This document shows positions 23,770 to 53,744 of a DNA stretch of 64,000 bases, piece after piece. A model generated the notes under the pieces. That model saw only the letters and a program-made list of their open reading frames with translations. It was not told the DNA's origin and did no database searches. Made by a program: the position numbers and the translations under genes. Origin of the DNA: Actinomadura alba (GTDB lineage Bacteria; Actinomycetota; Actinomycetes; Streptosporangiales; Streptosporangiaceae). Location: NCBI RefSeq assembly GCF_014323705.1, contig NZ_JABVEC010000016.1, forward strand, positions 62,001-126,000, read 5' to 3'. The stretch's first letter is position 1. Each line of letters starts with the position of its first letter.

Positions 23770-23798
23770 CCTGTGGTCGGCGGGTGTCTCGGGCGGTC

Positions 23799-24728: not shown

Positions 24729-24798
24729 CAGTGCACCATCTTTCTGTGCTTGTCGTCGGGATCCGGCGGGAGCCGGGGTGACGGTCGCCACGGGGGTG

Positions 24799-30549: not shown

Positions 30550-30590
30550 GCCGCCTCCCGGCTAGAACTCGATCACCGACGCGCGCCCGC

Positions 30591-31625: not shown

Positions 31626-31688
31626 CTGTCTCTCCTTCAGCGCGGACCCGCCGCGGCACGGAGCGGTGGGGTCGAAAGCCGTCGGGCC

Positions 31689-32561
31689 TCACCGGGTGTC
31701 GGACATCGCAGCGGGGTCCGCCGACCCGTCGCGGAGCAGCAGCATCGGATCGTTCAGCTCGTACAACCCGCACATCGGCGGGCAGGCCTCGTAGCCGAGG
31801 AGCCGCTGGATGTCCTCGGGGTAGCCGCGGACCACGTCCAGCGGTACGGACAGGTACTGGTTCTCCTCCTGGCGGAGGTTGCCGAGGTCGTAGGCATACG
31901 ACAGGCCGGTGCGGGGCGCGTCCGAGGCGTTGACGCCGGCCCCGTGGTACGTGCTGCCGAGCCACAGCAGCGCGGAACCGGCCCGCATCTCGGCGGGCAC
32001 CGCCTCGTCGTCGCGGGGCGCCCGCTCGTCGCCCCACCGATGGCTTCCCGGAATCACGCGGGTGGCACCGGTGCGCGCGGTGAACTCGCTAGCGGCGATC
32101 ATGACCTGAACCCGGCTCTCCGGGCCCGGGTGGGTACGGAGGTGGGCCGTGTCGTCCCGGTGCAGACTCTGGATCGGCACACCGGGCCAGGTCTGGATGG
32201 CCCGCGATATGCCGAGCTGGATCGTCGGCACGAGCTCCACGCGATGCTCGCCGAGCCAGGCCTTCACCGGCCGCTGCAGGAAGTGCCGCGCTGTGCCGAG
32301 GAGGTGCGGCTGCCGCATGATCGTGACCGAACGCGCGGTCCGGCGTACCAGTCCTGGGAGGATCCGGGTCTTCTCGCCGACCAGCCGCCCGTCGCCGTCC
32401 GGCTGGCGTTCCAGGGCCGGCCCCAGGTCGTCCCACAGACCGCGGAGCGTTTCGGCGTCGACGAAGTCCTCGATGATCACTGCTCCGTCACGGTCGACCA
32501 CGTCTATCGCCTCGTCGACCGCGGCCGACGCGGACAGGGTGGTCAGCTTGGGATCAGTCAT
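31689..32561 (-). CDS. Phytanoyl-CoA dioxygenase-family (Fe(II)/2-oxoglutarate) oxygenase
   Basis: A 290-residue protein with the double-stranded beta-helix fold. DGAVIIEDFVDAETLRGLWD is typical of PhyH N-termini. The iron site is SLHRDDTAHL (His-x-Asp) plus STYHGAGVNAS (second His), and the oxoglutarate Arg is in APRTGLSYAYDLG. GSHRWGDE matches the PhyH P-G-S-H loop. In clusters the family hydroxylates, halogenates or closes rings; in orthosomycins related enzymes (AviO1/EvdO1) make orthoester or methylenedioxy bridges. The role here is unknown, but its place next to sugar and aryl genes is notable. The second gene of the operon. Confidence 0.87.
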   Translation of the reverse strand: MTDPKLTTLSASAAVDEAIDVVDRDGAVIIEDFVDAETLRGLWDDLGPALERQPDGDGRLVGEKTRILPGLVRRTARSVTIMRQPHLLGTARHFLQRPVKAWLGEHRVELVPTIQLGISRAIQTWPGVPIQSLHRDDTAHLRTHPGPESRVQVMIAASEFTARTGATRVIPGSHRWGDERAPRDDEAVPAEMRAGSALLWLGSTYHGAGVNASDAPRTGLSYAYDLGNLRQEENQYLSVPLDVVRGYPEDIQRLLGYEACPPMCGLYELNDPMLLLRDGSADPAAMSDTR

Positions 32562-32615
32562 TCCGGCCTCCGGGGAGAGCGCAGGGGGCTGGCTTTCGTG
32601 GTCTGTCCAAGGTGG

Positions 32616-34145
32616 TCAGGTCGCCCGGGCGGGCGGGCCGAACCATCGGGTGAGGACGCTCGGCAGCGACGCCGGGTCGGCGGGCGTGCTCCATGCGACG
32701 AAGCCGTCCGGCCGGATCAGCAGGGCGTCCGCCGGGGCCTCGGCGCATTCGGCGGTGACCACGTCGACCCGGTCGGACCAGGGCTCGGCGAGCGCACGCA
32801 ACCCGGGATCGGCGCCGAGGTCGAGCAGCAGTGGCCGCCCGGTGCGTTGCAGTTCCGCGACCCGTACGGTGCCGTCGGAGCGTTCGAGCCGCAGGTCCGG
32901 GCTGTAGCGCCCGGCCAGCGGGCCGGTCAGCGACGGGTCGCCCATGTCGTAGCTGATGTGCAGGTCGTCGACCAGGGCGGTGAGCTGCCGGTTCGCCTCA
33001 TCGCGGAGCAGCAGTTCCTTGAGCAGCCGGCGCAACGCGTCGACGTGCGGGCCGGGTCGCATCAACGCGATCGAGGCGCGCTGGATCTCCAGCGTCTGCG
33101 CGCCGATCGGATGCCGCTCCGAGGTGTACGTGTCGAGCAGATCCTCCTGGCACCAGCCTCGCGCGACCGCGGCGAGCTTCCAGCCGACGTTGACGGCGTC
33201 GCCCAGCCCGAGCCGCAGGCCTGGACCGCTCCAATGCGAGTGGACGTGGGCCGCGTCGCCGACTAGTAGTACCCGCCCGCTGCGGTACGTCTCGGCCTGC
33301 CGTGCGTTGTCGGTGAACCGGGTGATCTTCTTGACCTCGGTGACCGTCACCTTGGTGCCGCTGAGCCGGCGCAGCGCCCCCTGGAACTCCTCGAGCGTGA
33401 TGGGCGCGTCCCGACTCACCGGTGGGTCGCCGAATTCCAGCGTGATGAACCGGGGTGGTCCCTCCTCGTACACCAGGAGCCCGCCGTCCTTGCGGAACCA
33501 GCCGGGCAGGTGGAAGTCGGGGTCGTCGATCTCGGCGAAGGCGCGGTACCCGGTCGTGATGCCGTCCGTTCCCGGAAAGGCGATGCCGGACAGCTTCCGG
33601 ACCATGCTCCGGCCGCCGTCGCAGCCGACGAGCCATTCCGCCTCGATCCGGTACGGCCCGTCCGGTCCCTCGACGTCGAGGCCCACCCGGTCGTCGTCCT
33701 GGGTGAAGCCGGTGACCGTGTGGCCGCGCCGCACCTCGACACCGAGTTCCGTCGCGCGCCGCGCCAGGTCCTCCTCCAGCAGTTGCTGGGGCACCAGCAG
33801 GTCGGGCGACTCCGGGCGGAGGAGGAACATGCTGGCGAAATGCCGCGCGCCGGGGAACGCCTTGGGCAGCAGGCTGTCCGGCCGTCGCTCACCTGCGGCG
33901 ATGCGTGCCCGCTGCTCGGCGGTCGGTGGCGTGGTGGGGGTCTCGGTCACCCCGATCATGAGACCGCGACGGTCCATGATGTCGACGGCCCGCCCGGTGA
34001 TGCCCTCGGCCTTCGGGCGCCATTCGATCTCGGGCAGTCGTTCGAGCACCACCACCGGAACGTCGTGTAGTGCCACCTCGCAGGCGAGCATGAGCCCAAC
34101 CGGTCCACCACCGACAACCGCGACCTGAGCATCCCGAAACGCCAT
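32616..34145 (-). CDS. FAD-dependent aromatic hydroxylase (class A flavoprotein monooxygenase)
   Basis: 509 residues from ATG 34145, preceded by AGAGG. It has a Rossmann GxGxxG (VAVVGGGPVGLMLACEVALH), a DG motif (WLVGCDGGRSMVRK) and a GD motif (LLVGDAAHVHSHWSGPGLRL, then GDAVNVGWKLAAVARGW). The C-terminal thioredoxin-like domain ends LLIRPDGFVAW, as in phenol and polyketide hydroxylases (MhpA/RdmE type). It probably hydroxylates the aromatic ring made by the PKS. It is the first gene of the leftward operon; the 262-bp spacer upstream carries the promoter region. Confidence 0.9.
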   Translation of the reverse strand: MAFRDAQVAVVGGGPVGLMLACEVALHDVPVVVLERLPEIEWRPKAEGITGRAVDIMDRRGLMIGVTETPTTPPTAEQRARIAAGERRPDSLLPKAFPGARHFASMFLLRPESPDLLVPQQLLEEDLARRATELGVEVRRGHTVTGFTQDDDRVGLDVEGPDGPYRIEAEWLVGCDGGRSMVRKLSGIAFPGTDGITTGYRAFAEIDDPDFHLPGWFRKDGGLLVYEEGPPRFITLEFGDPPVSRDAPITLEEFQGALRRLSGTKVTVTEVKKITRFTDNARQAETYRSGRVLLVGDAAHVHSHWSGPGLRLGLGDAVNVGWKLAAVARGWCQEDLLDTYTSERHPIGAQTLEIQRASIALMRPGPHVDALRRLLKELLLRDEANRQLTALVDDLHISYDMGDPSLTGPLAGRYSPDLRLERSDGTVRVAELQRTGRPLLLDLGADPGLRALAEPWSDRVDVVTAECAEAPADALLIRPDGFVAWSTPADPASLPSVLTRWFGPPARAT

Positions 34146-34407
34146 TAACACCTCTTCTGGGGATAGCAATGAGCCTTGCTGGAAGAGTCGTCGGGTTACC
34201 ACTCACAAGACCGGCCACATTTACGGCGGTCTTGCACCCTGCGCGTTGACACATGTGTCCGTTCGGTCAGCGCCGATGCTAATCGGATGGCCCAAAAATG
34301 ACTAGTGGTGTCATTTTTCGGATTCGTCATGCATAATCTTCAGCGCTGATGATCACCGGCGTGCCGGGACGGCGCGGCCGCCCGGTGCCCAGGCGGGAGG
34401 TTGCCGG
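34146..34407. promoter_or_regulatory. Divergent control region of the biosynthetic cluster
   Basis: The spacer between the leftward ten-gene operon and the rightward P450-AKR pair. It has a perfect 12-bp palindrome GACACATGTGTC (34248-34259) overlapping a TTGACA hexamer (34246-34251). It also has an inverted repeat AAAAATGAC-n7-GTCATTTTT (34294-34318) in AT-rich context. Both are operator candidates. The cluster has no regulator gene of its own in the window, so the binding protein must be encoded elsewhere. Confidence 0.55.
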
Positions 34408-35637
34408 ATGAGCGATGGTCGGATGGCCCAGCCGTTGGAGACCGACCGACCCACCCCCTTCGACCCGCCCGTCGAGCTGCGGAAGCGAGCCCCGCTGAGC
34501 CGGCTGGCCTATCCCGACGGGCACGTCGGCTGGGTGGCCACCGGGTACTCCGTCACCCGGGCCATCCTGGCCGATCCGCGCTTCAGTACCCGGCGCGAGC
34601 TGCTTCACCAGCCGGTCGGCCGGGAACGCGCGCATGAGCGGCCGACACCCGCGGAGCCGGGCATCTTCCCGCACATGGATCCGCCCGAGCACACCCGGTA
34701 CCGCCGCCTGCTGAGCCGCCACTTCGGCCCTCGGCGCGTCGCGGAGCTGACGCCCGCGATCCGGCGGTACACCGCACAGGCGCTCGACGGTATGGCGGAC
34801 GGCGGGCCGCCCGTCGACCTCGTCGCGTCGTTCGCGATGCCGATCCCGGCCATGGTGATCTGCGAGCTGCTGGGCGTACCGGCCGAGGACCGGCACCTGA
34901 TCCAGGCGGCGACCGCGGTGATGAACAACCTGGATTCCACGCCGGAACAGGCGATCGACGCCGTGATGTCGATCACCGGGACGGTGCGCGGCCTCATCAC
35001 GCGCCTGCGCGCCGCATCCACCCCATCGGACGACGGGCTACTGGCGCACGCCGTGGCGACCGACGACCTGACCGACGACGAACTCACCAACCTCGGGATG
35101 GTGCTGCTGGCCACCGGCCACCTGCCCACGTCGAGCATGCTCGCGCTCGGGACGTTCGTGCTGCTGACCGAACCGGCCCAGCGAGCCCGCCTGGCCGCGG
35201 ACCCGGAACTCGCCGAGCGGGCGGTCGAGGAGCTGCTGCGATACCTGTCGATCCTCCAGTTCGACGTACGACGCACCGCGCTGGTCGATGTGGAGATCGA
35301 CGGCCAGGTCATCGCGGCCGGTGAGACCGTGGTGCTGGCGCTGCCGGTGGCGAACCGGGATCATGTGCACTTCGCCGACCCGGACACGCTGGACCTGGCC
35401 CGCTCCCCGGCCGGGCACCTGGCCTTCGGGCACGGCATCCACCAGTGCCTCGGGCAGCATCTCGCGCGCGCCGAGCTTCGTATCGCGCTGACCGCGCTCT
35501 TCGAGCGCTTCCCCGACCTGCGCCTGGCGGTTCCGGCGGCCGAGGTGCCGACCCGCGAACGCATGGCGGTGTACGGAGTGGACCGGCTACCGGTCGCCTG
35601 GGGTGCTGTTCTGGCGGACCGTCCGAGCGCCGGATAG
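34408..35637 (+). CDS. Cytochrome P450 with non-canonical I-helix
   Basis: A 409-residue CYP. FPHMDPPEHTRYRRLLSRHF (helix C), the ExxR motif in EELLRYL, and the haem loop LAFGHGIHQCLGQHLARAEL with the axial Cys are all present. The I-helix reads LATGHLPTSSMLALG, where most bacterial P450s have A-G-H-E-T-T. The acid is Leu and the usual Thr is Pro. Dioxygen activation must then differ, as in some P450s that use substrate-assisted proton delivery or catalyse coupling. It is head-to-head with the FAD hydroxylase and 9 bp before the AKR gene. Confidence 0.9.
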   Translation: MSDGRMAQPLETDRPTPFDPPVELRKRAPLSRLAYPDGHVGWVATGYSVTRAILADPRFSTRRELLHQPVGRERAHERPTPAEPGIFPHMDPPEHTRYRRLLSRHFGPRRVAELTPAIRRYTAQALDGMADGGPPVDLVASFAMPIPAMVICELLGVPAEDRHLIQAATAVMNNLDSTPEQAIDAVMSITGTVRGLITRLRAASTPSDDGLLAHAVATDDLTDDELTNLGMVLLATGHLPTSSMLALGTFVLLTEPAQRARLAADPELAERAVEELLRYLSILQFDVRRTALVDVEIDGQVIAAGETVVLALPVANRDHVHFADPDTLDLARSPAGHLAFGHGIHQCLGQHLARAELRIALTALFERFPDLRLAVPAAEVPTRERMAVYGVDRLPVAWGAVLADRPSAG

Positions 35638-35646
35638 TTTTGGATC

Positions 35647-36600
35647 ATGCGTTATAGGAGCTTGGGCGATTCAGGCCTCCGGGTGTCGGTGGTCGGGCTG
35701 GGCTGCAACAACATCGGTGCGCGTCTCGACGTGACCCGTACCAGGGCGGTGGTGGACGCGGCGATCGAGGAGGGTGTCACGCTGTTCGACACCGCCGAGT
35801 CGTACGGCGCGACCCCGGGTGCCTCCGAGGAGCAGCTCGGCGAGGTGCTGGCCGGCCGGCGGGACAAGGTGGTGCTGGCCACCAAGTTCGGCAGCCCCGA
35901 CAACCGCCCCGACTACGGGCAGGGCGAGGCGCGCGGAGCGCTGGGCGGCCGGTCGTACATCCGACGGGCGGTGGAGGGTTCGCTGCGCCGCCTGCGTACC
36001 GACTACATCGACCTGTTCCAGTACCACTTTCCGGACGGCGTCACTCCGATCGAGGAGACGCTGGAGGCCCTGACCGAGCTGGTGCGTGAGGGCAAGGTGC
36101 GCTACATCGGCAGCTCGAACTTCACCGGCTGGCAGATCGCCGAGGCCGCGCATGTGGCCCGCGCGGGCGGATGCGCGTCGTTCGTGTCGACGCAGAACCA
36201 CTGGTCGTTGTTGGACCGGGGCGCCGAGCGCGACGTGGTTCCGGCGGCCGTGCATTACGGGGTCGGCGTGCTGCCGTACTTCCCGCTGGCCCACGGGCTG
36301 CTGACGGGAAAGGTGCGACGCGGGCAGGAGCCGCCGGCCGGGAGCCGGCTCGCGGAGCGTCCTTTCCTCGTCACGCCGGAGAAGCTGGACCGGGTGGAGG
36401 TCCTGACGTCCTGGGCCGAGAAGCACGACCGGTCCGTCCTGGACGTGGCCATCGGCGCGCTGGCCGCTCTGCCCGGCTGCGGTTCGGTGATCGCCGGTGC
36501 GACCGGCCCGGAGCAGATCCGGGCCAACGCGGCCGCCGGCGATTGGGAACCGACCGCCGAGGAACTGGCCGAGATCACCGCGTTGGTGCCGCTCACCTGA
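35647..36600 (+). CDS. Aldo/keto reductase
   Basis: A 317-residue AKR (TIM barrel) with the full catalytic tetrad: Asp and Tyr in LFDTAESYGAT, Lys in LATKFGSPD, His in FQYHFPDGV. The NADPH-binding end (GATGPEQIRANAAAG) is intact. It is likely co-transcribed with the upstream P450 (9-bp gap). It probably reduces a sugar or aromatic carbonyl in the pathway. A general detoxification role cannot be excluded. Confidence 0.9.
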   Translation: MRYRSLGDSGLRVSVVGLGCNNIGARLDVTRTRAVVDAAIEEGVTLFDTAESYGATPGASEEQLGEVLAGRRDKVVLATKFGSPDNRPDYGQGEARGALGGRSYIRRAVEGSLRRLRTDYIDLFQYHFPDGVTPIEETLEALTELVREGKVRYIGSSNFTGWQIAEAAHVARAGGCASFVSTQNHWSLLDRGAERDVVPAAVHYGVGVLPYFPLAHGLLTGKVRRGQEPPAGSRLAERPFLVTPEKLDRVEVLTSWAEKHDRSVLDVAIGALAALPGCGSVIAGATGPEQIRANAAAGDWEPTAEELAEITALVPLT

Positions 36601-36659
36601 TCGGCAGGGTCCGCGACGGCGGCGCCGACACGCGACCGGGCGGTGCTGGACCGGTTGGA

Positions 36660-37865
36660 CTACCAGGCGACGGGCATCGCGTGCAGCCCGAAGAGCCCGG
36701 CATCGTAGGCGAAGGGCAACTGGTCGAGCCCGGCCGCCAGGCGCAGCGTCGGCATCCGGGTCAGCAGGGTGCCGTAGGCGATCTCCAGCTCGGCGCGGGC
36801 GAGGTTGTGGCCGACGCACTGATGTACCCCGTGGCCGAAGGCGAGGTGGTGGTGCGCAGACCGGCGGATGTCGAACTCGTCGGGATTCTCGAACGCCCGC
36901 TCATCACGGTTGGCAGATGCGGCCAGTACCGTCAGGCGATCACCAGCGCAGATCTGCACACCGCCGATATCGAGGTCGTCCGCCGCCGTCCGGTCGAAGC
37001 TGACCCAGTCCTGCACCGAGTAGAACCGCAGCAGCTCCTCGGTCGCACCCGGCAGCAGGCTCGAGTCGGCGCGCAACGCGGCGAGCTGCGCCGGGTGCTC
37101 CAGCAGCGTCAGCACGCCCAGTGAGATCATGTTCGCCGGCGACTCGTAGCCCGCGAGCAGCAGCAGGAATCCGATGTTGATCAGAGCGTCGGTGGTCAGC
37201 TCCCCGGTGGGCAGGTACCTGGCGGCCAGCCGTCCGATGAGGCCGTCGTGTGGTTCACGCTCGGCGCGGAGGATGAGTTCGCGCAGGTAGCCGCGAAGGT
37301 CTTGGGAGGCCTGGGGCGCCCGCTGGTCGATGCTCATCACGCTCAGCATCCGGAGCCGGGACTCGAAGAATCCGTGGTCGCCGGCCGGGACGCCGAGCAG
37401 CTCGCAGATGACTCGCGACGGGACCGGGCGCGCGAACGACTCGACGAGGTCGGCAGACGACCCGGTCTCCAGCATCTTGTCGATCGCCGTGTCGACGATT
37501 CGTTGGATGCGCGGCCGCATGGCGGCCACCGGGCGGGCACCCAGCTCCGAGATCAGCAACCGTCGATACCGACTGTGCTCTGGTGGGTCCATGTCGATGA
37601 AGAAGCCGTCGTCGGGACGGTCGTCGTCGGGTCCGCGAGGTCGTTCGGGTCGTCCGGTGTTCGAGCTGATCCGCGGGTCGCTGAGGATCTGCCGCGCCTC
37701 GGCGTGGCGGGTGACCGCCCAGACCGGCGCACCGTTGGGCAGGTTGGCGCGGACGATCGGCGCGCTGGCGCGCATCCGCTGATACTCGGCCGGCGGAGCG
37801 AACGGGCAGGTCCGCTCCATCGGGAAGGTCGGTGGCGCGAGCATGTCGTGCTCGGATGTGCTCAT
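36660..37865 (-). CDS. Cytochrome P450
   Basis: 401 residues from ATG 37865, chosen for GAGGGGG 8 nt upstream (MSTSEHDMLAPPTFPMERTC). FFIDMDPPEHSRYRRLLISE (helix C), an I-helix LLLLAGYESPANMISLG that keeps Gly-Glu with Ser for Thr, ExxR in TEELLRFYSV, and the haem loop LAFGHGVHQCVGHNLARAEL are present. This is the CYP105/107-like type of natural-product hydroxylases. It converges on the AKR gene (59 bp between stops). It is assigned to the cluster by position. Confidence 0.9.
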   Translation of the reverse strand: MSTSEHDMLAPPTFPMERTCPFAPPAEYQRMRASAPIVRANLPNGAPVWAVTRHAEARQILSDPRISSNTGRPERPRGPDDDRPDDGFFIDMDPPEHSRYRRLLISELGARPVAAMRPRIQRIVDTAIDKMLETGSSADLVESFARPVPSRVICELLGVPAGDHGFFESRLRMLSVMSIDQRAPQASQDLRGYLRELILRAEREPHDGLIGRLAARYLPTGELTTDALINIGFLLLLAGYESPANMISLGVLTLLEHPAQLAALRADSSLLPGATEELLRFYSVQDWVSFDRTAADDLDIGGVQICAGDRLTVLAASANRDERAFENPDEFDIRRSAHHHLAFGHGVHQCVGHNLARAELEIAYGTLLTRMPTLRLAAGLDQLPFAYDAGLFGLHAMPVAW

Positions 37866-38074
37866 CCAGTTCCCCCTCAGCGGCCGCTCCAGCATGCCGC
37901 CGCAGCGTGGGGCGTGTCCAGCGGCCGGGGACGGATCCTCAGTACCGTCGACGAGACGCCACCATTTTGGGAACCAAACAAATCACGTCCGGTCGGAGTC
38001 TGAGCTATATACTTTGACCTTGATTTCCGATCACACGGAGACGGTCCGAAAAAACGGCAATGAATGGAGGTTGC

Positions 38075-41666: not shown

Positions 41667-41749
41667 AAAGGCCCCTTCCGAAGATCGGAAGGGGCCTTTG
41701 AGCTGCGAGCCGCCTATCGGAATCGAACCGATGACCTATTCATTACGAG
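41667..41749. repeat. att-like site 1: tRNA-Thr 3' half plus hairpin
   Basis: 41667-41699 is a perfect hairpin (15-bp arms around a 3-nt loop). 41709-41749 is identical over 41 nt to the 3' half (anticodon loop to acceptor end) of the tRNA-Thr gene at 53672-53744. The 5' half is absent, so it is not a tRNA gene. It is interpreted as a distal attachment site of a tRNA-integrated element. Confidence 0.85.
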
Positions 41750-42027
41750 TTCCCGCATACGGCGAGGCCCGTACCTGTGTTGCCCTGGAACTGATGGCCG
41801 TACGTACCTTCGCAATGGCCGTCGCTCCGCTGGCCCCGTGGATCGGCGAGCAGTTGGCCGCCGGACTCGGCAAGCCTTTGGGCGTGCCGGCCGAATGATC
41901 CTCCGACAGGTGCGGCCGGGGACACCCATGCGGTTCTCTGGTAACTTCAGTGGACACGGTCGTCGACCGGCCGATCACGACGGCCCTTCTGGTCCACCCG
42001 TAGCGCATTGCAGGAAAGAAGCCCCCG
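41750..42027. other. Intergenic region left of the aminomutase gene
   Basis: The plus-strand frame 41760-41898 reads ALELMAVRTFAMAVAPLAPW. It faintly resembles the anticodon-binding tail of a class I tRNA synthetase but has no start or upstream domain. I leave it uncalled. AGGAAAG just before 42028 is the ribosome site of the next gene. Confidence 0.3.
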
Positions 42028-43323
42028 ATGACCGAACAAACCTATGAGTCGATCTCTACGGCGTCACGGGAGATGTATGCCAGAGCCTGTGAAGTGCTGC
42101 CTGGTGGTAACACCAGGACCGGCATCTTCAATTCGCCGTACCCTATCTATGCGCGCTCGGGCAACGGCTGCCGGGTCACCGACCTCGATGGTGTCGAGCG
42201 GATCGACTTCCTCAACAACAGCACCACGTTAATCCACGGACACGCGCACCCGGAGATCGTCGCTGCGGTCACCGAGGCCGCTGGCCGCGGGACGTGTTTC
42301 GCGCTACCCACTGAGGCGGAGGTGGAGTTCGCCGAGGCCGTCTGCGCCCGGAACGAGTCGTTCGAATGGGCCCGGTTCACCAGCTCTGGTACCGAGGCGG
42401 TCATGATGGCGGTCCAGGCCGCCCGCGCGTACACCGGCAAGCCGAAGATCGCCAAGTTCGCCGGAGCGTTCCATGGCGCCTACGACTCGGTCGCGGTGAA
42501 CAATTACGGGTCGGACTCGCTGACCCCGCACAGCCACGCCACGGGCACCCCGGCCGCGATCCTGGCCAACACCGTGATGATCCCGTTCAACGATCCAGAC
42601 GGTGCGGTCGCAATCCTGCGCGAAAACGTCGATGACTTCGCCTGTGTGCTGATCGACCCGGTCCCCTGGCGACTCGGCCTGCTACCGGCGAACAGGGAGT
42701 TCCTGGCCGCACTGCGGGCATTCTGCGACGAGACCGGCGTCCTGCTGGTCTCTGACGAGATCAGTTCGTTCCGAATCGGCTACCACGGCGCCATGCACGC
42801 TATGGGCGGCGTTGCCGACCTCACCGTACTCGGCAAGATCATCGGCGGCGGCATGCCGATCGGCGCGGTGACCGGTCGGTCCAAGTTCATGTCGGTGTTC
42901 GACCCCAGCCAGGGAACGCCGAAGTTGCCGCACTCCGGCTCCTACAACGCCAACCCGGTCAGCATGGCGGCTGGCATGGCCTCACTGCGTCTGCTCACGC
43001 CCGAGCAGATTGATCGGATAAATGCGATGGGCGAGCAGGTCCGGCGGGAGTTGCGCAGTGTCATTGCCGAGGAAGGTCTGGACTGGGCCGTCAACGGGAT
43101 GTCTTCGTTGTTCCGGATCGTCACCTCGACCGTACCCGGATCGGATCTGTCCGGCCCGGAACTGAGCCGGTTGCTGTTCCAGGCCCTGCTGACCAACGGG
43201 ATCCTGATCGGTAACAGCGGACTGGGTTGTGTGTCGACGCCGATGGGACAGGGTGAGATCGACGAGTTTGCGGTCAATTTCAAACAAGCGGTCCGGCAAG
43301 CCGTGGCTGCCGCCCGCAGTTGA
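42028..43323 (+). CDS. hemL: Glutamate-1-semialdehyde 2,1-aminomutase homologue
   Basis: A 431-residue class III PLP enzyme. SREMYARACEVLPGGNTRTG opens as in HemL. NSTTLIHGHAHPEIVAAVTE, FTSSGTEAVMMAVQAARAYT (phosphate-binding turn) and LLVSDEISSFRIGYHGA follow, then the Schiff-base Lys270 in VLGKIIGGGMPIGAV. Canonical HemL reads D-E-V-M-T-G-F-R where this has D-E-I-S-S-F-R, so it is a diverged subgroup rather than the housekeeping enzyme. It may form 5-aminolevulinate from the semialdehyde made by the HemA encoded nearby, or a related beta/delta-amino acid. First gene of a rightward trio. Confidence 0.8.
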   Translation: MTEQTYESISTASREMYARACEVLPGGNTRTGIFNSPYPIYARSGNGCRVTDLDGVERIDFLNNSTTLIHGHAHPEIVAAVTEAAGRGTCFALPTEAEVEFAEAVCARNESFEWARFTSSGTEAVMMAVQAARAYTGKPKIAKFAGAFHGAYDSVAVNNYGSDSLTPHSHATGTPAAILANTVMIPFNDPDGAVAILRENVDDFACVLIDPVPWRLGLLPANREFLAALRAFCDETGVLLVSDEISSFRIGYHGAMHAMGGVADLTVLGKIIGGGMPIGAVTGRSKFMSVFDPSQGTPKLPHSGSYNANPVSMAAGMASLRLLTPEQIDRINAMGEQVRRELRSVIAEEGLDWAVNGMSSLFRIVTSTVPGSDLSGPELSRLLFQALLTNGILIGNSGLGCVSTPMGQGEIDEFAVNFKQAVRQAVAAARS

Positions 43324-43360: not shown

Positions 43361-44533
43361 ATGACTGGAACAGAACCTGAGTTCAAGTTGTCTACAGCAA
43401 TCATGACACATCCAGGACGGATTGAGGCCGCCCAATCGTTGGCGAAGTCGATCGTGGAGTTGTCTCCAAAAATAATAGTAGACCCGACTCCCACCGGTCG
43501 AACGATCGACAATGCTGTTCGCGCTTGGAACGCGGTGGAGGACGACGCGACTCATCACTTGGTACTACAGGACGACTGCCATGTTTGCAGCGGCTTCATA
43601 CCGATGCTACGCAGTGCTATATCCGAAATGCCGCACTGTGCTCTGTCGTTCTTTACCACTTGGAGTTCTCGAACATCAAACGTGGTACGAATTGCAGCAT
43701 TGCGCAGATCTCGATGGGCTGAGGTTTGTGACTACTATCTACCTTGCGTTGCTCTTGTGCTGCCGGCATGGATGGCTCAATCATTTTCTCTAAGCTCACT
43801 CAATGGAGTATATCTCGAGGATGATTCTGCGCTATTCGAGTATATAACCAAGCATGACGTCCGCGCATACATGCATGTACCCAACCTTGTTCAGCATTCC
43901 GAGCTTCCGACAGTTGCGAGGAATCAGGTTGGCACACGGCTTTCAGTTTACTTCCATGATGACGCCACAGCGATGGGCGCCAGAAGAGGGATAACAGAAG
44001 CTGGGACGATTCTCCCTCAATTCTCCTGGTACAGGCGACAGAACTACTGGTTATACAGAAGAGATACACGAGCACAATGGTACGAGATCAACAGCGAAGA
44101 ATCAGTTCTTGAATATATCGGGATCGACCTGGACAAGGTCCATGATCACTATGAGAAGGCCCGTCAAGCTCAGCCAGAGGCGATAGGAGTTGTTGATGAC
44201 GGATCTCATTATGCTCTATGGCTAAGCGCCTTTGGTCTCGGAATGGCAGCTGCTGGTAGAGGTAACATATACCTCCATACTGACGCTGCTCAAATAGCAC
44301 TCGGAACGCTAGCACCTGGCGCATGGCGGCTGATGGCGGCGGACCATGTGATAGCACAACACAGAGTAGCACTTGCAAAGTTCGTCACCGCCGCCGTCGA
44401 GCTAGGGGTTTCATACGTAAAAAACGGCCAGGCTCCCGCCATCCACGATATTTCCTTGCCTTCAAATTTCCTTGGAAGGCGAGCCCTCTCCCACATCGAT
44501 CCAATGAATCCATATAATCAGCGGCAGCTTTAG
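43361..44533 (+). CDS. Glycosyltransferase-like protein, function unknown
   Basis: 390 residues. The N-terminal ~170 residues look like a GT-A nucleotide-sugar fold: STAIMTHPGRIEAAQSLAKS, TIDNAVRAWNAVEDDATHHL, then LVLQDDCHVCSGF with a D-D metal-type motif. It continues ALVLPAWMAQSF, GVYLEDDSALFEYI and PNLVQHSELPT. The C-terminal ~180 residues are an additional unrecognised domain (LWLSAFGLGMAAAGRGNIYL). Codon use is clearly AT-richer than its neighbours, pointing to separate origin. Three bases separate it from the transporter gene, so they are co-transcribed. Confidence 0.55.
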   Translation: MTGTEPEFKLSTAIMTHPGRIEAAQSLAKSIVELSPKIIVDPTPTGRTIDNAVRAWNAVEDDATHHLVLQDDCHVCSGFIPMLRSAISEMPHCALSFFTTWSSRTSNVVRIAALRRSRWAEVCDYYLPCVALVLPAWMAQSFSLSSLNGVYLEDDSALFEYITKHDVRAYMHVPNLVQHSELPTVARNQVGTRLSVYFHDDATAMGARRGITEAGTILPQFSWYRRQNYWLYRRDTRAQWYEINSEESVLEYIGIDLDKVHDHYEKARQAQPEAIGVVDDGSHYALWLSAFGLGMAAAGRGNIYLHTDAAQIALGTLAPGAWRLMAADHVIAQHRVALAKFVTAAVELGVSYVKNGQAPAIHDISLPSNFLGRRALSHIDPMNPYNQRQL

Positions 44534-44536
44534 TGA

Positions 44537-45727
44537 ATGAATCCTCCAGGGGTTCTAGCAATCTATAGCGCACCCGCGTATAGGCCTCACGTGGCAACTC
44601 TTATTGCCGCCGGCGCAGCATCGTCATGTGGAGTTCCACTCCTTCCTATCCATGTGACAACAACAGCAGGAGGCACTCTATCCCAAGTGGGATACATATC
44701 TACGACCTCACTGCTTGGTTCGCTTGTGGGACTCATTCTGGGCCACATTTCCGATCGCCGGAAATCGAATACCGGAATCATTCGGATCAGCGCACTGCTG
44801 CTCAGCTTTGGATGGTTCGCAGTAGGCTGGACCCGCAGTGTTCTAGAAGTGTTTCTTATTTCAATCTGCTTCTTGTCACTCGCTACCGTCCTTAGCTCTC
44901 AAGTCTTCGCCGCAATATCCACATCCCAGGAATCCAAGGAAAGGGAACGCGCCAAGGTAGCGAGTTCTCTCCGTGCATGTTTCTCATTGGGGTACGCGAT
45001 TGGTCCTCTAGTGGGGGCCGCGATTGCTGGCATCGGAGGGATTAGAGCCGCTTTTTCGGTCTCCGGTCTTTTGTACTTCAGCATCGTTCTCATTGCGAAA
45101 AGCCCCGCGCCGTCAAATCTTGAGGAAGTTCGAAAGGTCAGCTCGCCTGGTGGGGTGGCGCCAAGCAGCTTGGGTCGGATGGTATTCTTCTGCAGCCTGC
45201 TGTGCTTGGTGCTTGTGGGTGATTTTCTAAAAGCCTCTTACCTTCCGGTCTACATCGTCCACAACCTTGGTTATTCAATCCTGGTTAGCGGAGTTTTGCT
45301 CGGGCTGTGTGCAGGACTCGAGTTGATCGCCTTCATGGTGATTGGACTGATATCGTCACGGTACGGCGCCGGGTGGACAGTTGCCATCGCAGTCGGAATA
45401 GCCTCACTGGGTTACAGCTTGATGGCAGGCATTCCTCATCTCGCGGTTATTTACATGGTTCAGATTTCCCACGTCTGGGTTTTTGCCGCTATTCATGGGG
45501 TCGGCCCGATCTATACTCAACGTCTTCTGGGGCCGCATATTGGGACTGCTACGGCATCCTTCTTCTTTGCTGTAGCCGGCGCTAAGGTTTTAAGTGGTGT
45601 AATAGGTGGGGTACTTGCAGTTCCTCTTGGCCTTCCAAACTTGTTCTGGCTTCCAGCCGCAATATGTGCCATTGTGTTTATTGTAATGATCTTTACTGTC
45701 CCCCGAGGGGTGCTGCGTGTGCAGTGA
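44537..45727 (+). CDS. Major facilitator superfamily exporter (sugar-efflux-like)
   Basis: A 396-residue protein with about 12 hydrophobic segments. Motif A-like GLILGHISDRRKSNTGIIRI follows helix 2. FSLGYAIGPLVGAAIAGIGG is the motif C-like helix 5 of drug/sugar antiporters. The second half starts LGRMVFFCSLLCLVLVGDFL. The overall pattern is nearest to SetA-type sugar/lactoside effluxers. Like the gene before it, it is AT-rich for this genome. Its role is likely export of the product made by the adjacent glycosyltransferase-like and tetrapyrrole-type enzymes (inference). It ends 23 bp from the convergent hemA. Confidence 0.8.
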   Translation: MNPPGVLAIYSAPAYRPHVATLIAAGAASSCGVPLLPIHVTTTAGGTLSQVGYISTTSLLGSLVGLILGHISDRRKSNTGIIRISALLLSFGWFAVGWTRSVLEVFLISICFLSLATVLSSQVFAAISTSQESKERERAKVASSLRACFSLGYAIGPLVGAAIAGIGGIRAAFSVSGLLYFSIVLIAKSPAPSNLEEVRKVSSPGGVAPSSLGRMVFFCSLLCLVLVGDFLKASYLPVYIVHNLGYSILVSGVLLGLCAGLELIAFMVIGLISSRYGAGWTVAIAVGIASLGYSLMAGIPHLAVIYMVQISHVWVFAAIHGVGPIYTQRLLGPHIGTATASFFFAVAGAKVLSGVIGGVLAVPLGLPNLFWLPAAICAIVFIVMIFTVPRGVLRVQ

Positions 45728-45750: not shown

Positions 45751-47082
45751 TTAGGTTTCTGGTCCCTCGACTCGGCCGCTTGGTTCGCTGGAGGTTCCAT
45801 TCGGAATTCGGGAGCTATCAGGCCCCGCCGGGTCGGTGTGCGTGGCCGATTCCGGGGGGTTCGGCGGGAGGTCGAACAGCTCGCGCAGCACGGTGGCGTA
45901 CTGCCCGCCGCCGGGTGCCGCGGCTAGTTCCTGGACGCGCACGGTGGGCGTGTGCAGCAGTTTGTCCGCCACTCTTTGGACCGTCCGGGCGATGACGCCA
46001 TGCGCGCGTTCGTCAAGCTCGGGGAGTCGGGTGGTCAGCCGGGCCAGTTCACTGTCCACCACGGCTGTCGCCTTGTCCCGTAGCGCGGCCACCGTCGGGG
46101 CCACCGCCTCCGCGTACCGACTCGCCCGGCAGTCGGCGATCTCATCCTCGATGATGCGCGTGACCGCCTCGATATCGACGGCGTTGGCGTGCGCCCGGTC
46201 GACGAGGTCGTCCAGACCGATCAGGATGGCGCCGGGCCGCAGCGCGGCTTCCGGGTCGATGCCGCGCGGGAAGGCCAGATCGAGCAGGACTACGGGGCGG
46301 CACACCATGTCCGCAGTGACCACGTACTCGCCTGCACCTACGCAGGAGACGACCAGGTCGGCGGTGGCGAGCGCGTCCCCCACGTCCGCGAGTGGAATCG
46401 CGGCGGCATGCACCGGGACGTTGTCGGCCAGGCGTTCGGCCCGCCGTACGGTCCGATTCGCCACCGTGACCGTGGCGATCCCGCGATCAGCCAAGGTGTT
46501 GGCGGTCAGTGTGCTGATCGAGCCTGCTCCGACGATCAGCGCGTGCTTGCCGGCCACCGGTCCGACGATGTCCAAGCCCACGGTCACCAACGAGGCACCG
46601 GCACGGTTGATGCTGGTCTCGGACCGGGCTCGCTTGCCGACCCGCAGCGCCCGCTGCATGACCCCGTGCAGCACCCGGCCCACAGTGCGGCGATCCTGCG
46701 CGAGCCGGAAGGCGGCGCGTACCTGGCCCAGGATCTGGTCCTCACCGATCACCATCGAATCCAGCCCGCACACCATCTTGAGCAAGTGTCGGAACGCGTC
46801 GTCGTCCGCGTACTGGTAGAGGTGCGGAACCAGCCGATCCGGCGGAATACCGCAGTGCCGGGCGAACAGTTCGGTGATGGTCTGGACGCTCTGCGAAGAC
46901 GTCACGGTCTCGGCGTAGACCTCCACCCGGTTGCAGGTGGCGACGACCACGGCCTCGCGGGTTCCGGGGGCGCGATGGACGTCACTTAGTAATCTCTTGG
47001 CGGTCTCCTCGGTGATGGCTGCCCGCTCGAAGATGGCCAGTGGCGCGCTCCGATAGCTTAATCCGATCACCAGAATGCTGAT
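45751..47082 (-). CDS. hemA: Glutamyl-tRNA reductase
   Basis: About 443 residues. The nucleophile is in VVVATCNRVEVYAE. The His and substrate region read FRHLLKMVCGLDSMVIGEDQ and ILGQVRAAFRLAQ. NADPH domain: HALIVGAGSISTLTANTLAD and VANRTVRRAERLAD. The helical dimerisation domain follows, then a Pro/Ser-rich ~35-residue tail. GGAGG at 47095-47091 places initiation at an ATC codon (47082), giving the conserved beginning S-I-L-V-I-G-L-S-Y-R-S-A-P. ATG 47148 is the nearest AUG but lacks a site. The C5-pathway enzyme makes glutamate-1-semialdehyde, the HemL-type substrate encoded next door. Confidence 0.9.
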   Translation of the reverse strand: MSILVIGLSYRSAPLAIFERAAITEETAKRLLSDVHRAPGTREAVVVATCNRVEVYAETVTSSQSVQTITELFARHCGIPPDRLVPHLYQYADDDAFRHLLKMVCGLDSMVIGEDQILGQVRAAFRLAQDRRTVGRVLHGVMQRALRVGKRARSETSINRAGASLVTVGLDIVGPVAGKHALIVGAGSISTLTANTLADRGIATVTVANRTVRRAERLADNVPVHAAAIPLADVGDALATADLVVSCVGAGEYVVTADMVCRPVVLLDLAFPRGIDPEAALRPGAILIGLDDLVDRAHANAVDIEAVTRIIEDEIADCRASRYAEAVAPTVAALRDKATAVVDSELARLTTRLPELDERAHGVIARTVQRVADKLLHTPTVRVQELAAAPGGGQYATVLRELFDLPPNPPESATHTDPAGPDSSRIPNGTSSEPSGRVEGPET

Positions 47083-47230
47083 GGCAATCACCTCCGCTGG
47101 CGGACGTCGACTCTGCTGGCGGACGTCGACTCTGGGCAGTTTATTCACTGCAACAATCCGTTGTAATTATGGATACTATGCCCTATGGCGAGTGCTGCGT
47201 CTAGTCAAAAGGATTTCGGATTCGACTGGC
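47083..47230. promoter_or_regulatory. Divergent promoter region of hemA and the hemB homologue
   Basis: An AT-richer 148-bp spacer with a CAACA-n4-TGTTG-like dyad (47151-47165 area) and a TATGGATACTAT stretch (47168-47179) that may hold a -10 box for the rightward gene. The assignment is tentative. Confidence 0.4.
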
Positions 47231-48196
47231 ATGGCCGCCATATCAGCAGCCCTTTCCTGGGACGGGAGTGAGTTCGTGATCGAGCACGACGTCACAGAGT
47301 TCGCGGTCACCGGCGAGACGGTCAGTACCCTGAAGCCCTCGGATCTGGCAATGGTCTTCCTGGTCCGGGACGACCCGGAGGCCGGGGCACGCCCGATGCC
47401 GACGCTGGGCTTGCGGGATGTCGGTCCTGCCGTGAAGGACTTGGTCAGACACGGGGTCAGCGCGGTCAAGGTGTTCGCCGGCGGCGATCGCCGCGACGCC
47501 CTGGGGTCGGCGGGCCGCGCCCGCGACAGCATGATGTCCCGAGCCATCCAGGAGGTGAAGGCGGCCGACGCGTCGATGACGGTAATGACCGAGACATGTC
47601 TGTGCTCGTTCACGGACACCGGGGAGTGCCATGTAGGCGATGACGCGGGCAGCCCGGACATCGCGGCCACCATCGAGGCGATCGCGGAACAGGCGGTGGT
47701 GCAGGCGAAAGCGGGGGCGGACATCGTGGGACCGGCCGCGATGCTGCCCGGAAGCGTGCGTCGGGTGCGTCAGGCACTGGACGATGACGGGCGGTCGGGC
47801 ATTCGCATCATGCCGCATCTCATCTTCGACTCAAGGCTCTACGACGGCTATCGCCGCACCATGGACGCGATTCCGGCGTCCGGCGAGCGCCGCGTATTTC
47901 AGGTGGATCCGCAGCGGCCGACGCGCGCGGTCCGGACCTCCCTGGAGTTCATCGAAGAGGGCGCGGACATGCTACTGCTGGAGCCCGCCCTGTTCTGCGC
48001 CGACGTGCTGGTCGCGTTAAAGCGGATCTGCGCTGTACCGCTGGCGCCGTTCTCCGTGTCGGGCGAATACACCAGACTAATGGGGGCCGACGGGGATCAT
48101 CGCTTGCTGTTCGAGCTGTTCACCATGTTAAAGCGCGCCGGGTCGGATCACATCATTACGTACGCCGCCGCAGAACTGGCGCGTACGCTGGAGTGA
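47231..48196 (+). CDS. Porphobilinogen synthase (HemB) homologue lacking both catalytic lysines
   Basis: 321 residues. The family is unmistakable: the zinc-type triad [80 protein letters not shown] and [17 protein letters not shown]. The two Schiff-base lysines are replaced: the S-Y-x-x-K-Y-A-S position is Ile198 (MPHLIFDS), and the M-V-K-P-A position is Glu251 (LLLEPALF). The enzyme cannot work by the known mechanism, so a new reaction, a binding role or inactivity are the options. ATG 47231 has no obvious ribosome site. It is divergent from hemA. Confidence 0.88.
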
Positions 48197-48509: not shown

Positions 48510-49418
48510 CTACACCGTGGCTCGGATTTCCCGCAGGATGTGCTCCGCCCCGGACATGACAAGCGTGGCGGCGAGCTGCGCACCAAGCGCCTCTGGGTCC
48601 CGGCCGAAGGCGTTCGCGACCACCTTGTGGCTGCCGTCGAGCGAGGTGACCTGTGCGCTCAGACGCAGACCGCGCCCCTCAGCCGGCACCGCGTAGGCTC
48701 CGACCGGTACCGAGCAGCCGCCATGCAGTTCGGCGAGCAGCGCCCGTTCCGCGCGAACCGCGGCGTCCGCGACCGGATCGCCCACCGAGGAGAGCATCTC
48801 CCGCAGTTCGGTGTCGGCCGCCCGTATCTGGACGCCGAGTGCCCCCTGACCAGGCGACGGCGGAAAATCTTCCAACGGAAGCAGATCCGCGATCTGGTCC
48901 TCAAGGCCCAAGCGGCGCAGCCCAGCCGCCGCCAACACCACGGCGTCCAACCCGGTCTCCAGGCGCCTGAGACGCGGTGGCACATTGCCGCGGATCGGCA
49001 CGATGTCCAAATCCGGGCGCAGTGCCTTGAGCTGCGCGATCCGCCGTGGCGATCCAGTGCCGACCCTGGCCCCGGGACGCAGGGCCGCGAGGGTGGAGCC
49101 GCACAGCGCGTCCCGCATGTCGGCACGCGGCGGGGTCGTGGCCAGGGCGAGCGCCGGCGGCATGCTGGTCGGCAAATCCTTGAGAGAATGCACCGCCACG
49201 TCGATCCGCCCGGCCAGCAGTTCCTCCTCAAGCCTGCTGGAGAACGCCCCGTCCCCGCCCACTTCGCTCAGCGGACTCTTGCGATCCCGGTCACCGTCCG
49301 TGGTGATGGTGCGGGTTTTGAACCTGATCACCGGGCAGGGGACAAGGCTGGCAAGGTACTCACGCACCATGGCCTGCGCCAAATGGCTACCGCGGACACC
49401 GATAACGACCGTCTCCAT
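48510..49418 (-). CDS. hemC: Hydroxymethylbilane synthase (porphobilinogen deaminase)
   Basis: 302 residues. [17 protein letters not shown] (N-terminal substrate loop), the catalytic Asp in [52 protein letters not shown], and the dipyrromethane-cofactor Cys in [14 protein letters not shown] are all present. The enzyme looks active and polymerises four porphobilinogens. No hemD follows, unlike the usual hemACD order. It is a second-copy candidate inside the tRNA-Thr island. Confidence 0.92.
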
Positions 49419-49946: not shown

Positions 49947-50753
49947 GTGAACGATCTGCTTGCCGGCCTCGACAACGTCGAGTGGGCTCGGCTGCGGCAC
50001 GCGTACGGCTCGGCCGCTAACGTTCCGGTACTGATACGGGATCTACGCGCTGGGAAACCGGATGCCTGCCATGAGTTGTGGGCCTGCATCTGTCACCAGG
50101 GCACACGGTACGAGGCGTCCGTTCCCGCCGTGCCGTTCATCCTGCGGTTGGCCGCCACCTCCGACACGCCCGATCGCCCGGCCGTCGTGGAACTCCTGGA
50201 AACGCTCGCGATCGGTGTAGTCGACCACCCCGCACATCTTGGCCTTGATGTCGCGGCTTGGCGGCATGAGGTCGCCCGGCTGCCGCCGTCTGTCACCGGC
50301 GATGCCGGACAGGGCATGAGCACCTCCCCATGGGCGCTGGCCGCCTACGACGCGGTCCGCATGGGCACCCCAACGTTCTGCGCGCTGTTGGATGATCCGG
50401 ACCCAACCGTCCGCGCAGCCTCGGCCCATCTCCTCGGCTGGTTTCCAGAGGAAATCGACCTGACCCTTCCCCATTTGCTGGATCTGTTGAGCTCAGAGCC
50501 CCTGGGGGATGAAGGCCTGTTCGATCGCGTCTTCCCGGTAACCGCCTCGGTGATGAGGCTTGCCTTCGGCTCCGAGGACATCTGGTGGCCACCTGCATTC
50601 GATGAACTGACGCCGACACAGCAGCACGCGATCCGAGCGTTGGCCGAGCTGGGAGAGCGTGCCTGGCGCCGGGAAGAGTTCCGGACGATGCTGCAGGTGC
50701 GGTGCTTGCCGGATGATCAGAAGGGTTGCCGGCTATATGCCGGAATGGGTTAG
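49947..50753 (+). CDS. HEAT-repeat-like hypothetical protein
   Basis: 268 residues from GTG 49947 with AGGAGAG 6 nt upstream. It is helical with repeated pairs (VPAVPFILRLAATSDTPDRP, AVVELLETLAIGVVD, DDPDPTVRAASAHLLGWFPE, LPHLLDLLSSEPLGD). HEAT-repeat proteins of this type are scattered through actinomycete accessory regions. Partner and function unknown. It lies between two integrase relics. Confidence 0.65.
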   Translation: MNDLLAGLDNVEWARLRHAYGSAANVPVLIRDLRAGKPDACHELWACICHQGTRYEASVPAVPFILRLAATSDTPDRPAVVELLETLAIGVVDHPAHLGLDVAAWRHEVARLPPSVTGDAGQGMSTSPWALAAYDAVRMGTPTFCALLDDPDPTVRAASAHLLGWFPEEIDLTLPHLLDLLSSEPLGDEGLFDRVFPVTASVMRLAFGSEDIWWPPAFDELTPTQQHAIRALAELGERAWRREEFRTMLQVRCLPDDQKGCRLYAGMG

Positions 50754-50842
50754 ACGTCGGCTGGCATGGTGGAGCTGGACGGTTCCGGACTTGCGCGGGG
50801 GCGGGGCCTCGCGGGCTGGCACCTGCCTGGACACGATGGCAG

Positions 50843-51000
50843 GATCATGATCTCGTCTTCGCCTCACGGGTGGGCGCCGAGCGCAACCCGAACAACGTGC
50901 TCCGATCCTTCCGGAGCGTCTTGAGTAAGGCTGAGCGCCGAAGCGCTGGACGAAATCTTTGCTCAGGAACCCTTGGAGCCCAAGTCACTCAGTTGGTCAC
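50843..51000 (+). pseudogene. Integrase relic paralogous to the integrase at 52769-53600
   Basis: RWQDHDLVFASRVGAERNPN and NVLRSFRSVLSKAE match the C-terminal part of the right-hand integrase. A jump then leads to LDEIFAQEP in another frame, matching MDEIFAEQA, the last residues of that protein. The active-site segment between them is deleted. It is followed 15 bp later by the second att-like repeat, the same order as at the intact tRNA. Confidence 0.75.
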
Positions 51001-51014
51001 TCACCCGGTAGCAG

Positions 51015-51097
51015 AAGGCCCCTTCCGAAGATCGGAAGGGGCCTTCCACCTGCGGAGCCGCCTATCGGAATCGAACCGATGACCTATTCATTACGAG
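51015..51097. repeat. att-like site 2: tRNA-Thr 3' half plus hairpin
   Basis: A second copy of the hairpin and of the 41-nt tRNA 3' half (51057-51097), identical in that core to the copies at 41709-41749 and 53673-53713. The sequence to its right diverges immediately after the anticodon-loop end. It separates the 9.3-kb hem-carrying element from a 2.6-kb element. Confidence 0.85.
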
Positions 51098-51228
51098 GGA
51101 AGGTCATGTACTCGTTCCGCGCTCGAGGTCTCTGCCGACCTGGCGATGCCCGTCCGCTGCCGTCCATAGCTGTCCAGGGTGGCGCGTGCCCGTTGTCACC
51201 CAGTTAGTCACTCGCCTGTCGATCCTAT

Positions 51229-52768: not shown

Positions 52769-53600
52769 GTGGCTGATCGCGAGCTATCCGCCGATGACAT
52801 GGATTGCTGGCTGGTCGCAAAGTCCGATGAACTCGGCACGGATACTCTTCGGCAGCTCAGGTCGATCCTCAAACGCGCGGTCGAACGGGCCCAGGCCCGC
52901 GACAAGGTCAAGCGCAACGTCGTCCTCCTCTGCGAGGTCCCACAAGGGCGAGAAGGGCTCCCCTCGAAAGCCCTCACGCTCCAGCAGGCCGTGGCAGTTC
53001 TGACGGCGGCCGAAGGCACCCCTATGTACGCCTACGTCGTCTCGTCGCTCCTCATCGGCGCACGGACCGAGGAACTTCGAGCACTTACCTGGGCACATGT
53101 CGATCTCGACGGCGTGCCCGATGCCGAGCCACCGTCAATCATGGTCTGGCACTCGGTCCGCGCCGGCCGGGACACCAAGACCAAGAAGTCCCGCCGGACG
53201 CTGGCGCTGCCCGCACGCTGCGTCGAGGCACTGCACAACCACCGCGAGCTTCAGCAGTCCGAGCGCAAAGCCGCGGGGAAACGCTGGGCAGGATCACGGG
53301 CTGGTGTTCGCGTCACGGGTCGGGACCGAGCGCAGCCCGAACAACGTCCTGCGCTCCTTCCGGAGCGTCCTCGCGAAGACCGATCTCGACCCAAAGGAGT
53401 GGACACCCCGCGAGATGCGGCACAGCTTCGTCTCGCTGCTTTCGGACTCCGGTGTTCCGCTGGAAGAGATCTCTCGTCTGGTCGGCCACGCCGGCACGAT
53501 CGTCACGGAGAAGGTCTACCGCAAGCAGATCCGTCCGGTACTGTTGGCCGGCGCCGAGACGATGGATGAGATCTTCGCTGAGCAGGCCACTGATGGATAG
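52769..53600 (+). pseudogene. Tyrosine recombinase (phage-type integrase), N-truncated and frameshifted
   Basis: From GTG 52769 the frame gives a core-binding domain (VADRELSADDMDCW, LRQLRSILKRAVERAQARDK) and the start of the catalytic domain with the first Arg (LLIGARTEELRALTW). Near 53290 the coding moves to the next frame, as if one base were inserted at TGGGCAGGA. It continues DHGLVFASRVGTERSPNNVL, REMRHSFVSLLSDSGVPLEE, SRLVGHAGTIVTEKVYRKQI (H-x-x-R, G-H, Tyr). The first ~130 residues of the family (arm-binding domain) are missing. It ends 31 bp before the hairpin and tRNA-Thr, so it served integration at that tRNA. Confidence 0.8.
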
Positions 53601-53631
53601 TCACTCAGTTGGTCACTCACTCGGCAGCAGA

Positions 53632-53664
53632 AGGCCCCTCCCGAAAGATCGGAAGGGGCCTTTG
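53632..53664 (-). terminator. tRNA-Thr terminator hairpin (part of the repeated att unit)
   Basis: An inverted repeat of ~15-bp arms (AAGGCCCCTCCCGA and TCGGAAGGGGCCTT, one mismatch), 8 nt beyond the tRNA 3' end, with A residues that give a T-run on the minus strand. The same hairpin is found at 41667-41699 and 51015-51046. Confidence 0.75.
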
Positions 53665-53671
53665 AGCTGCG

Positions 53672-53744
53672 AGCCGCCTATCGGAATCGAACCGATGACC
53701 TATTCATTACGAGTGAATCGCTCTGCCGACTGAGCTAAGGCGGC
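53672..53744 (-). tRNA. tRNA-Thr (anticodon CGT)
   Basis: A 73-nt cloverleaf on the minus strand. The acceptor GCCGCCT pairs with AGGCGGC. D-stem GCTC/GAGC, anticodon stem ATTCA/TGAAT around loop CTCGTAA (anticodon CGT, reads ACG), and T-arm ATCGG-TTCGATT-CCGAT are all intact. CCA is not encoded. Bases 53673-53713 (anticodon loop to 3' end) are repeated at 41709 and 51057, so this gene is the attachment site of the neighbouring elements. Confidence 0.95.

Follow-up and report, generated by a model that had tools for sequence, protein, structure and literature searches.

Porphobilinogen synthase (PBGS, or ALA dehydratase; HemB) is a homo-octamer, and its two lysines are regarded as what defines the chemistry of this enzyme, which ranks among the most conserved in metabolism. 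The Schiff-base route by which this enzyme makes porphobilinogen (PBG) has been described (PMC6262466), and inhibitors that resemble 5-aminolevulinate (ALA), such as levulinic acid and succinylacetone, are reported to bind to a lysine of the protein (PMC2999460). That lysine is lost from the paralogue described here, which will be referred to as HemB* and for which no account of a similar protein was found in the open-access literature searched.

The HemB* gene lies in a stretch of 64,000 nucleotides from Actinomadura alba, called the window throughout, inside an island of about 12 kb that has perfect 70-bp direct repeats on each side and is located at a tRNA-Thr(CGT) gene. The features of the island, in window coordinates, are the following.

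41681-41750, no strand: left 70-bp direct repeat, putative attL
42028-43323, forward: class III aminotransferase, related to HemL, below the HemL cut-offs
43361-44533, forward: phage-type glucosyltransferase-like protein (PHROG 854, N-terminal half)
44537-45727, forward: MFS exporter related to sugar efflux transporters, of low G+C content (about 52%)
45751-47148, reverse: HemA, an extra glutamyl-tRNA reductase (471 bits, cut-off 429)
47231-48196, forward: HemB*, a PBGS paralogue lacking the Schiff-base lysines (K194 deleted, K246 replaced by E251) and having a new lysine, K80
48510-49418, reverse: HemC-A, an extra hydroxymethylbilane synthase that retains the catalytic Asp and the cofactor Cys; convergent with HemB*
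51029-51098, no strand: third, degenerate copy of the att repeat (73%)
52769-53600, forward: tyrosine integrase-like remnant in two frames, grouping with genes from two relatives, of which one is an integrase
53645-53714, no strand: right 70-bp direct repeat, identical to the left one, putative attR, overlapping the tRNA-Thr gene
53671-53744, reverse: tRNA-Thr (CGT), the integration site; this tRNA and the right flank are the same in two congeners

The HemB* frame encodes 321 amino acids with no internal stop, and the product belongs to the ALAD superfamily, scoring 204.9 bits against Pfam PF00490 over residues 34-318 (cut-off 24.6), while its 198.5 bits against the NCBIfam equivalog model for porphobilinogen synthase (HemB) stay below the cut-off of 297. 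A phmmer search of HemB* against solved chains returned PBGS structures only. The AlphaFold2 model, built from seven sequences, predicts a PBGS barrel (pLDDT 85, pTM 0.87), and all 50 PDB matches listed by Foldseek for this model are PBGS, with query TM-scores of 0.70-0.85; the top ones among the matches listed share 23-30% identity with HemB*, at TM-scores mostly about 0.83, and the complex with alaremycin 2 (2woq) is also among them.

The active site was compared residue by residue across 15 HemB* proteins and 10 usable canonical ones, and the outcome is a pocket that is conserved in an altered form. The zinc cysteines C123, C125 and C133 are invariant, which by sequence places HemB* with the zinc-type PBGS, and F82, R208, Q224, S277 and E279 are retained as well, whereas R215, an A-site carboxylate ligand, is not conserved. 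Both Schiff-base lysines (E. coli K194 and K246, published numbering) are absent from 15 of 15 HemB* and present in all ten controls, a pattern far beyond chance: K194 is deleted and K246 is replaced by Glu in every member, so that HemB* lacks the two lysines that mark a HemB enzyme. Four further changes are complete in the 15 proteins, again in the published E. coli numbering, namely D118 to Glu, S165 to Ala, Y192 to His and Y270 to Phe; at position 192 two of the canonical controls also depart from Tyr (one Thr, one His). The seventh change is the replacement of a strand-2 Met, Ile, Ala or Cys by Lys (K80, window numbering), seen in all 14 members whose sequence spans the position; no other lysine is invariant in HemB* while missing from the 10 canonical controls. 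Because most members were found through the pattern TETC[VLI]C, the conservation of E121 and of the first two cysteines is in part a product of sample choice, and that of K80, A169, H196, the K194 gap, E251 and F274 is independent of it. The first five relatives were found without this pattern, although two of the six starting peptide patterns nonetheless covered TETC and MPHLIFD.

The initial annotation had proposed that both lysines are replaced, by Ile198 and Glu251, and its central point holds, since neither site has a lysine and the P-site motif reads LLEPA, with E251 where VKPA has its Lys. The Ile198 part needs correction: when the A-site strand is aligned with that of E. coli HemB, a 12-residue segment faces IMSYSTKFASSFY with a one-residue gap at the lysine, and the same gap appears in alignments with other canonical HemBs. 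The change at this site is thus more accurately called a one-residue deletion, which Ile198 adjoins. The zinc cysteines, the GERRVFQ and SGEY motifs and a fourth, ten-residue motif, said to be kept, are all there in the window protein. Lysines at shifted positions would have spoken against the proposal, and a scan of residues 161-263 of the window HemB* for lysine found none; K80, on another strand, is a candidate for one of the two sites.

In the model, K80 falls within a predicted strand (78-83), two residues ahead of a conserved Phe (index 79 in E. coli) that we take to line the P-site. Because of this spacing its side chain should face the pocket, in the same way as the Phe, and we infer that K80 points inward and could reach the pocket. 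It is a candidate substitute for one of the two lost lysines, located on a different strand, and may form one Schiff base.

The family as assembled has 15 members, the window protein and 14 relatives from Streptosporangiales, Streptomyces, a Streptomonospora plasmid and a Rhizobium plasmid, with genes at unannotated relatives called by a simple codon-composition script. The closest relative, at locus L056, is 64% identical to the window protein; a scan of public genomes gave three Streptomyces relatives (51-52%), and plasmid searches gave copies on phiM2 of Streptomonospora litoralis (47%) and on pRltCC275eA of Rhizobium brockwellii (38%), both annotated as hypothetical protein. Searched at the DNA level, the pattern [MI]TETC[VLI]C occurs in 2 of 396 genomes taken phylum-wide (the window's own and one chance match), in 10 of 393 genomes of one large genus, probably Streptomyces and with genomes mostly of 7-12 Mb, where seven of the ten are HemB* loci, and in 7 of 299 genomes of the window's order, all seven of them HemB* loci. 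Four loci (L020, L032, L036 and L040) matched the pattern, yet are not HemB*. Among the sampled genomes the family is rare and patchy.

In a maximum-likelihood tree a branch with 100/100 support separates all 15 HemB* proteins from canonical HemB, and the Rhizobium member is inside the clade on a long branch. The dN/dS ratios of five HemB* pairs are 0.084, 0.216, 0.259, 0.178 and 0.252, the L038/L039 pair being left out for a frame error, and those of the partner HemC are 0.10-0.12. Copies at L033, L037, L038 and L061 are decayed or truncated, as expected of dispensable cargo, and L041 is without an in-frame N-terminus. The data support the view that HemB* is kept by selection and is not in simple decay. 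This bears out the initial suggestion of neofunctionalization, for which a conserved clade, shared substitutions, purifying selection and an intact predicted PBGS fold now speak; the converse possibility, that homologues are random degraded copies, agrees with some truncated copies but not with the majority, whose frames are intact. A clade with the same substitutions and the same neighbors had been proposed as the check: the substitutions and HemC recur, but HemA, the HemL-like aminotransferase and the exporter, sought beside HemB* of the relatives, were found at none and belong to the window locus alone.

The constant neighbor is HemC. An extra hemC gene is adjacent to HemB* at 15 of 15 loci, and alignment indicates that these partners retain the catalytic Asp and the cofactor Cys; the HemC-A of the window scores 272 bits against TIGR00212 (cut-off 164) and has the catalytic Asp, the dipyrromethane Cys and the Arg residues of a hydroxymethylbilane synthase. 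The arrangement varies. HemC-A is convergent with HemB* in the window and at eight Streptomyces loci and co-directional in Streptomonospora; at L057, L058 and L059 it is HemC-B that is co-directional, and at L057 and L059 the start and stop codons of the pair overlap; at L056 the order is HemC-B, Nudix, HemB*, with each gene overlapping the next by a few bases. Three Streptomyces loci carry HemC-A, a Nudix hydrolase and HemC-B. At L039, HemC-A is joined by another HemC, which is divergent, and on the Rhizobium plasmid HemB*, HemC and an ordinary HemB are consecutive genes. The association is one-sided, because HemC-A and HemC-B also occur without HemB*: HemC-A is found so at L046, L097 and L098, HemC-B is found in a congener among the sampled two-HemC genomes, and at least two HemC are present in 17 of 25 comparison genomes lacking a pattern match. 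A reverse transcriptase gene (PF00078; L039 4812-5774, forward) adjoins the HemC/HemC/HemB* set of L039. On a linear plasmid of Streptomyces sp. NBC_01216 (L046 7995-9905), HemC-A is convergent with a carbon-nitrogen hydrolase in place of HemB*, and HemC-B, a divergent additional HemC that actinomycetes without HemB* also have, is seen on contig 68 of the window's genome assembly G000 (L068 8988-9974, reverse) and at L099.

As regards the rest of the host, its 8.38-Mb assembly, in which the window is 62001-126000 of contig 9, has a second, ordinary HemB on contig 17 (466 bits), which is about 32% identical to HemB*, and a total of three HemA and three HemC. The third glutamyl-tRNA reductase (G000 contig 6, L067 9513-10835, forward) is away from other heme genes. 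The HemL-like aminotransferase of the island scores 308 bits against a cut-off of 398, and 300 against 527 for TIGR00713. The PHROG 854 glucosyltransferase adjoins the HemB* set in the window alone, though phiM2 has a weak relative (25%; L014 3387-4055) about 7 kb from its HemB*. A separate biosynthetic cluster occupies window positions 20886-37895, with a ketosynthase-acyltransferase-ACP polyketide synthase, a ketosynthase III pair, a split transketolase, a GT20 protein (trehalose-phosphate-synthase-like), a PhyH oxygenase, an FAD hydroxylase and P450s; no link to HemB* is drawn.

HemB* is found on mobile DNA. The island is an integrative element by its direct repeats, one of them at a tRNA gene, and by the absence of its cargo in relatives: two congeners (G001 and G002) have the syntenic tRNA-Thr and right flank without it. 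Two further copies are plasmid-borne, on phiM2, whose record is a plasmid despite the name, and on pRltCC275eA. Genes for a relaxase, an integrase and a DnaB-type helicase accompany HemB* at the Streptomyces locus L034, and some of these gene families recur at L033, L037, L039 and L041. When an intact integrase was sought in the window island, only fragments were found, and 52769-53566 has no Pfam match; nested tyrosine-integrase-like remnants at 50726-51098 and 52769-53733, together with the degenerate att copy, suggest repeated integration at the same tRNA-Thr. A phage origin of the gene was considered and rejected, as scans of viral contigs gave canonical HemB only and phage records gave HemB-like matches of 28-31%. 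An anti-phage defense system was likewise rejected, since none of the PADLOC models matched HemB* or HemC; the L056 Nudix gave a weak match (18.7 bits).

How might these observations be reconciled? The absence of lysine from the A and P sites makes the Schiff-base route to PBG unavailable to HemB*, the conservation of the pocket in its new form argues for catalysis, and the zinc and carboxylate residues that remain suggest that the substrate has the shape of ALA or PBG. Genes that make ALA (in the window) or PBG (in Rhizobium), and the PBG-polymerizing HemC found at each of the loci, point to PBG as an input, and this, with the conserved pocket, favors an enzyme acting on or beside PBG together with HemC. 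Our leading interpretation, to which we give about an even chance, is that HemB* is an active, zinc-dependent, PBGS-derived enzyme that no longer makes PBG from two ALA and is paired with a dedicated HemC, the two forming a small mobile pathway. The pocket would still have its metal ligands and the residues that hold the carboxylates of ALA or PBG (R208, Q224 and S277), and the two lysines would be supplanted by the set E121, H196 and E251 plus K80 on another strand of the barrel. Most likely, HemB* would take a pyrrole resembling PBG as its substrate, or assemble a different pyrrole with no more than one Schiff base, at K80, and its HemC partner would join the product into a linear, non-heme oligopyrrole; the extra HemA of the window would raise the supply of ALA, and the extra normal HemB of the Rhizobium plasmid that of PBG. 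The loss of the lysines, the selection and the constant HemC make it probable that HemB* carries out a pyrrole reaction so far undescribed. More tentatively, and with less than even probability, we propose a new activity of the PBGS fold, in which a relocated lysine, K80, and zinc would serve to form or alter some pyrrole that is not PBG; with its HemC, HemB* would then constitute a mobile pathway of two or three genes, leading to an oligopyrrole metabolite that is undescribed and that actinomycetes and rhizobia exchange.

The main rival takes HemB* to be a non-catalytic binder of PBG or ALA, which feeds, senses or sequesters PBG for HemC, or regulates HemC. It is unlikely in our estimation, yet it would suit a protein that has lost both synthesis lysines, retains the product-binding residues and always neighbors HemC; what it would not predict is the same acid-base swaps (D118, Y192 and K246 to E, H and E) in every member, or the gain of an invariant strand lysine. 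The sequence fits each of the roles first suggested, a different condensation, binding of a C5 metabolite or a decoy, though its invariant zinc and acid-base residues favor an enzyme over a decoy. Continued synthesis of PBG, with zinc alone or with K80 as the single lysine, and as a spare supply for heme or porphyrin, would agree with the retained metal and carboxylate sites, with HemC as the next step of the same pathway, and with the additional heme genes of the window and the Rhizobium plasmid. We regard it as improbable, given that the window's genome already has a normal HemB and HemC, that a normal hemB lies two genes from HemB* on the Rhizobium plasmid, that no HemD, HemE or HemH was seen at HemB* loci, and that both lysines are lost with zero exceptions.

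A slightly lower probability goes to the proposal that HemB* joins the octamer of the host HemB and poisons or tunes it, so that a mobile element would control host heme synthesis as a toxin, a defense or a regulatory subunit. The homo-octameric state of PBGS, the mobile setting and the altered N-terminal arm of the window protein, an arm used in assembly, are in its favor, but host HemB has just about 32% identity to HemB*, the HemC linkage would be left unexplained, no defense model matched, and such a role would not require conservation of the pocket residues. Very unlikely is a role as a self-resistance target or decoy against an ALA-analogue antibiotic: the hosts are rich in secondary metabolites, an exporter is beside HemB* in the window and ALA-like HemB inhibitors exist, as in the alaremycin 2 complex, but the exporter is confined to this locus, resistance would require a HemB that is still catalytic, and the lysine to which levulinic acid and succinylacetone bind is one that HemB* does not have (PMC2999460). 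Decaying HemB copies without function, a reading to which the truncated copies lend some color, have a negligible probability; the tests of selection and conservation contradict it, with dN/dS of 0.08-0.26, most frames intact and identical substitutions across two phyla.

A clade kept by selection without the double lysine offers a direct test of three things: what else the PBGS fold can catalyze, whether the lysine of a Schiff base may change strands, and whether mobile DNA spreads unrecognized pyrrole metabolites. There is also a consequence for annotation, since a domain match alone would label the plasmid proteins as porphobilinogen synthase, and the lost lysines argue against this label.

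Set against the known systems, HemB* resembles PBGS (PF00490) in its fold, its three zinc cysteines, its Arg/Gln/Ser carboxylate residues and its SGE motif, and it differs in lacking both Schiff-base lysines, in D118E, S165A, Y192H, Y270F and the new K80, in a score under the NCBIfam HemB cut-off and in forming a separate clade. Its partner compares with hydroxymethylbilane synthase (HemC; PF01379) and is of the HemC-A or HemC-B type, the Rhizobium partner being a type of its own; HemC-A differs from other HemC in its separate clade (support 99) and its altered GGKGLF motif. The class I aldolases, in which transaldolase and FBP aldolase place the Schiff-base lysine on different strands of the same barrel, provide the precedent for a moved lysine, and HemB* may have relocated its own in a comparable manner.
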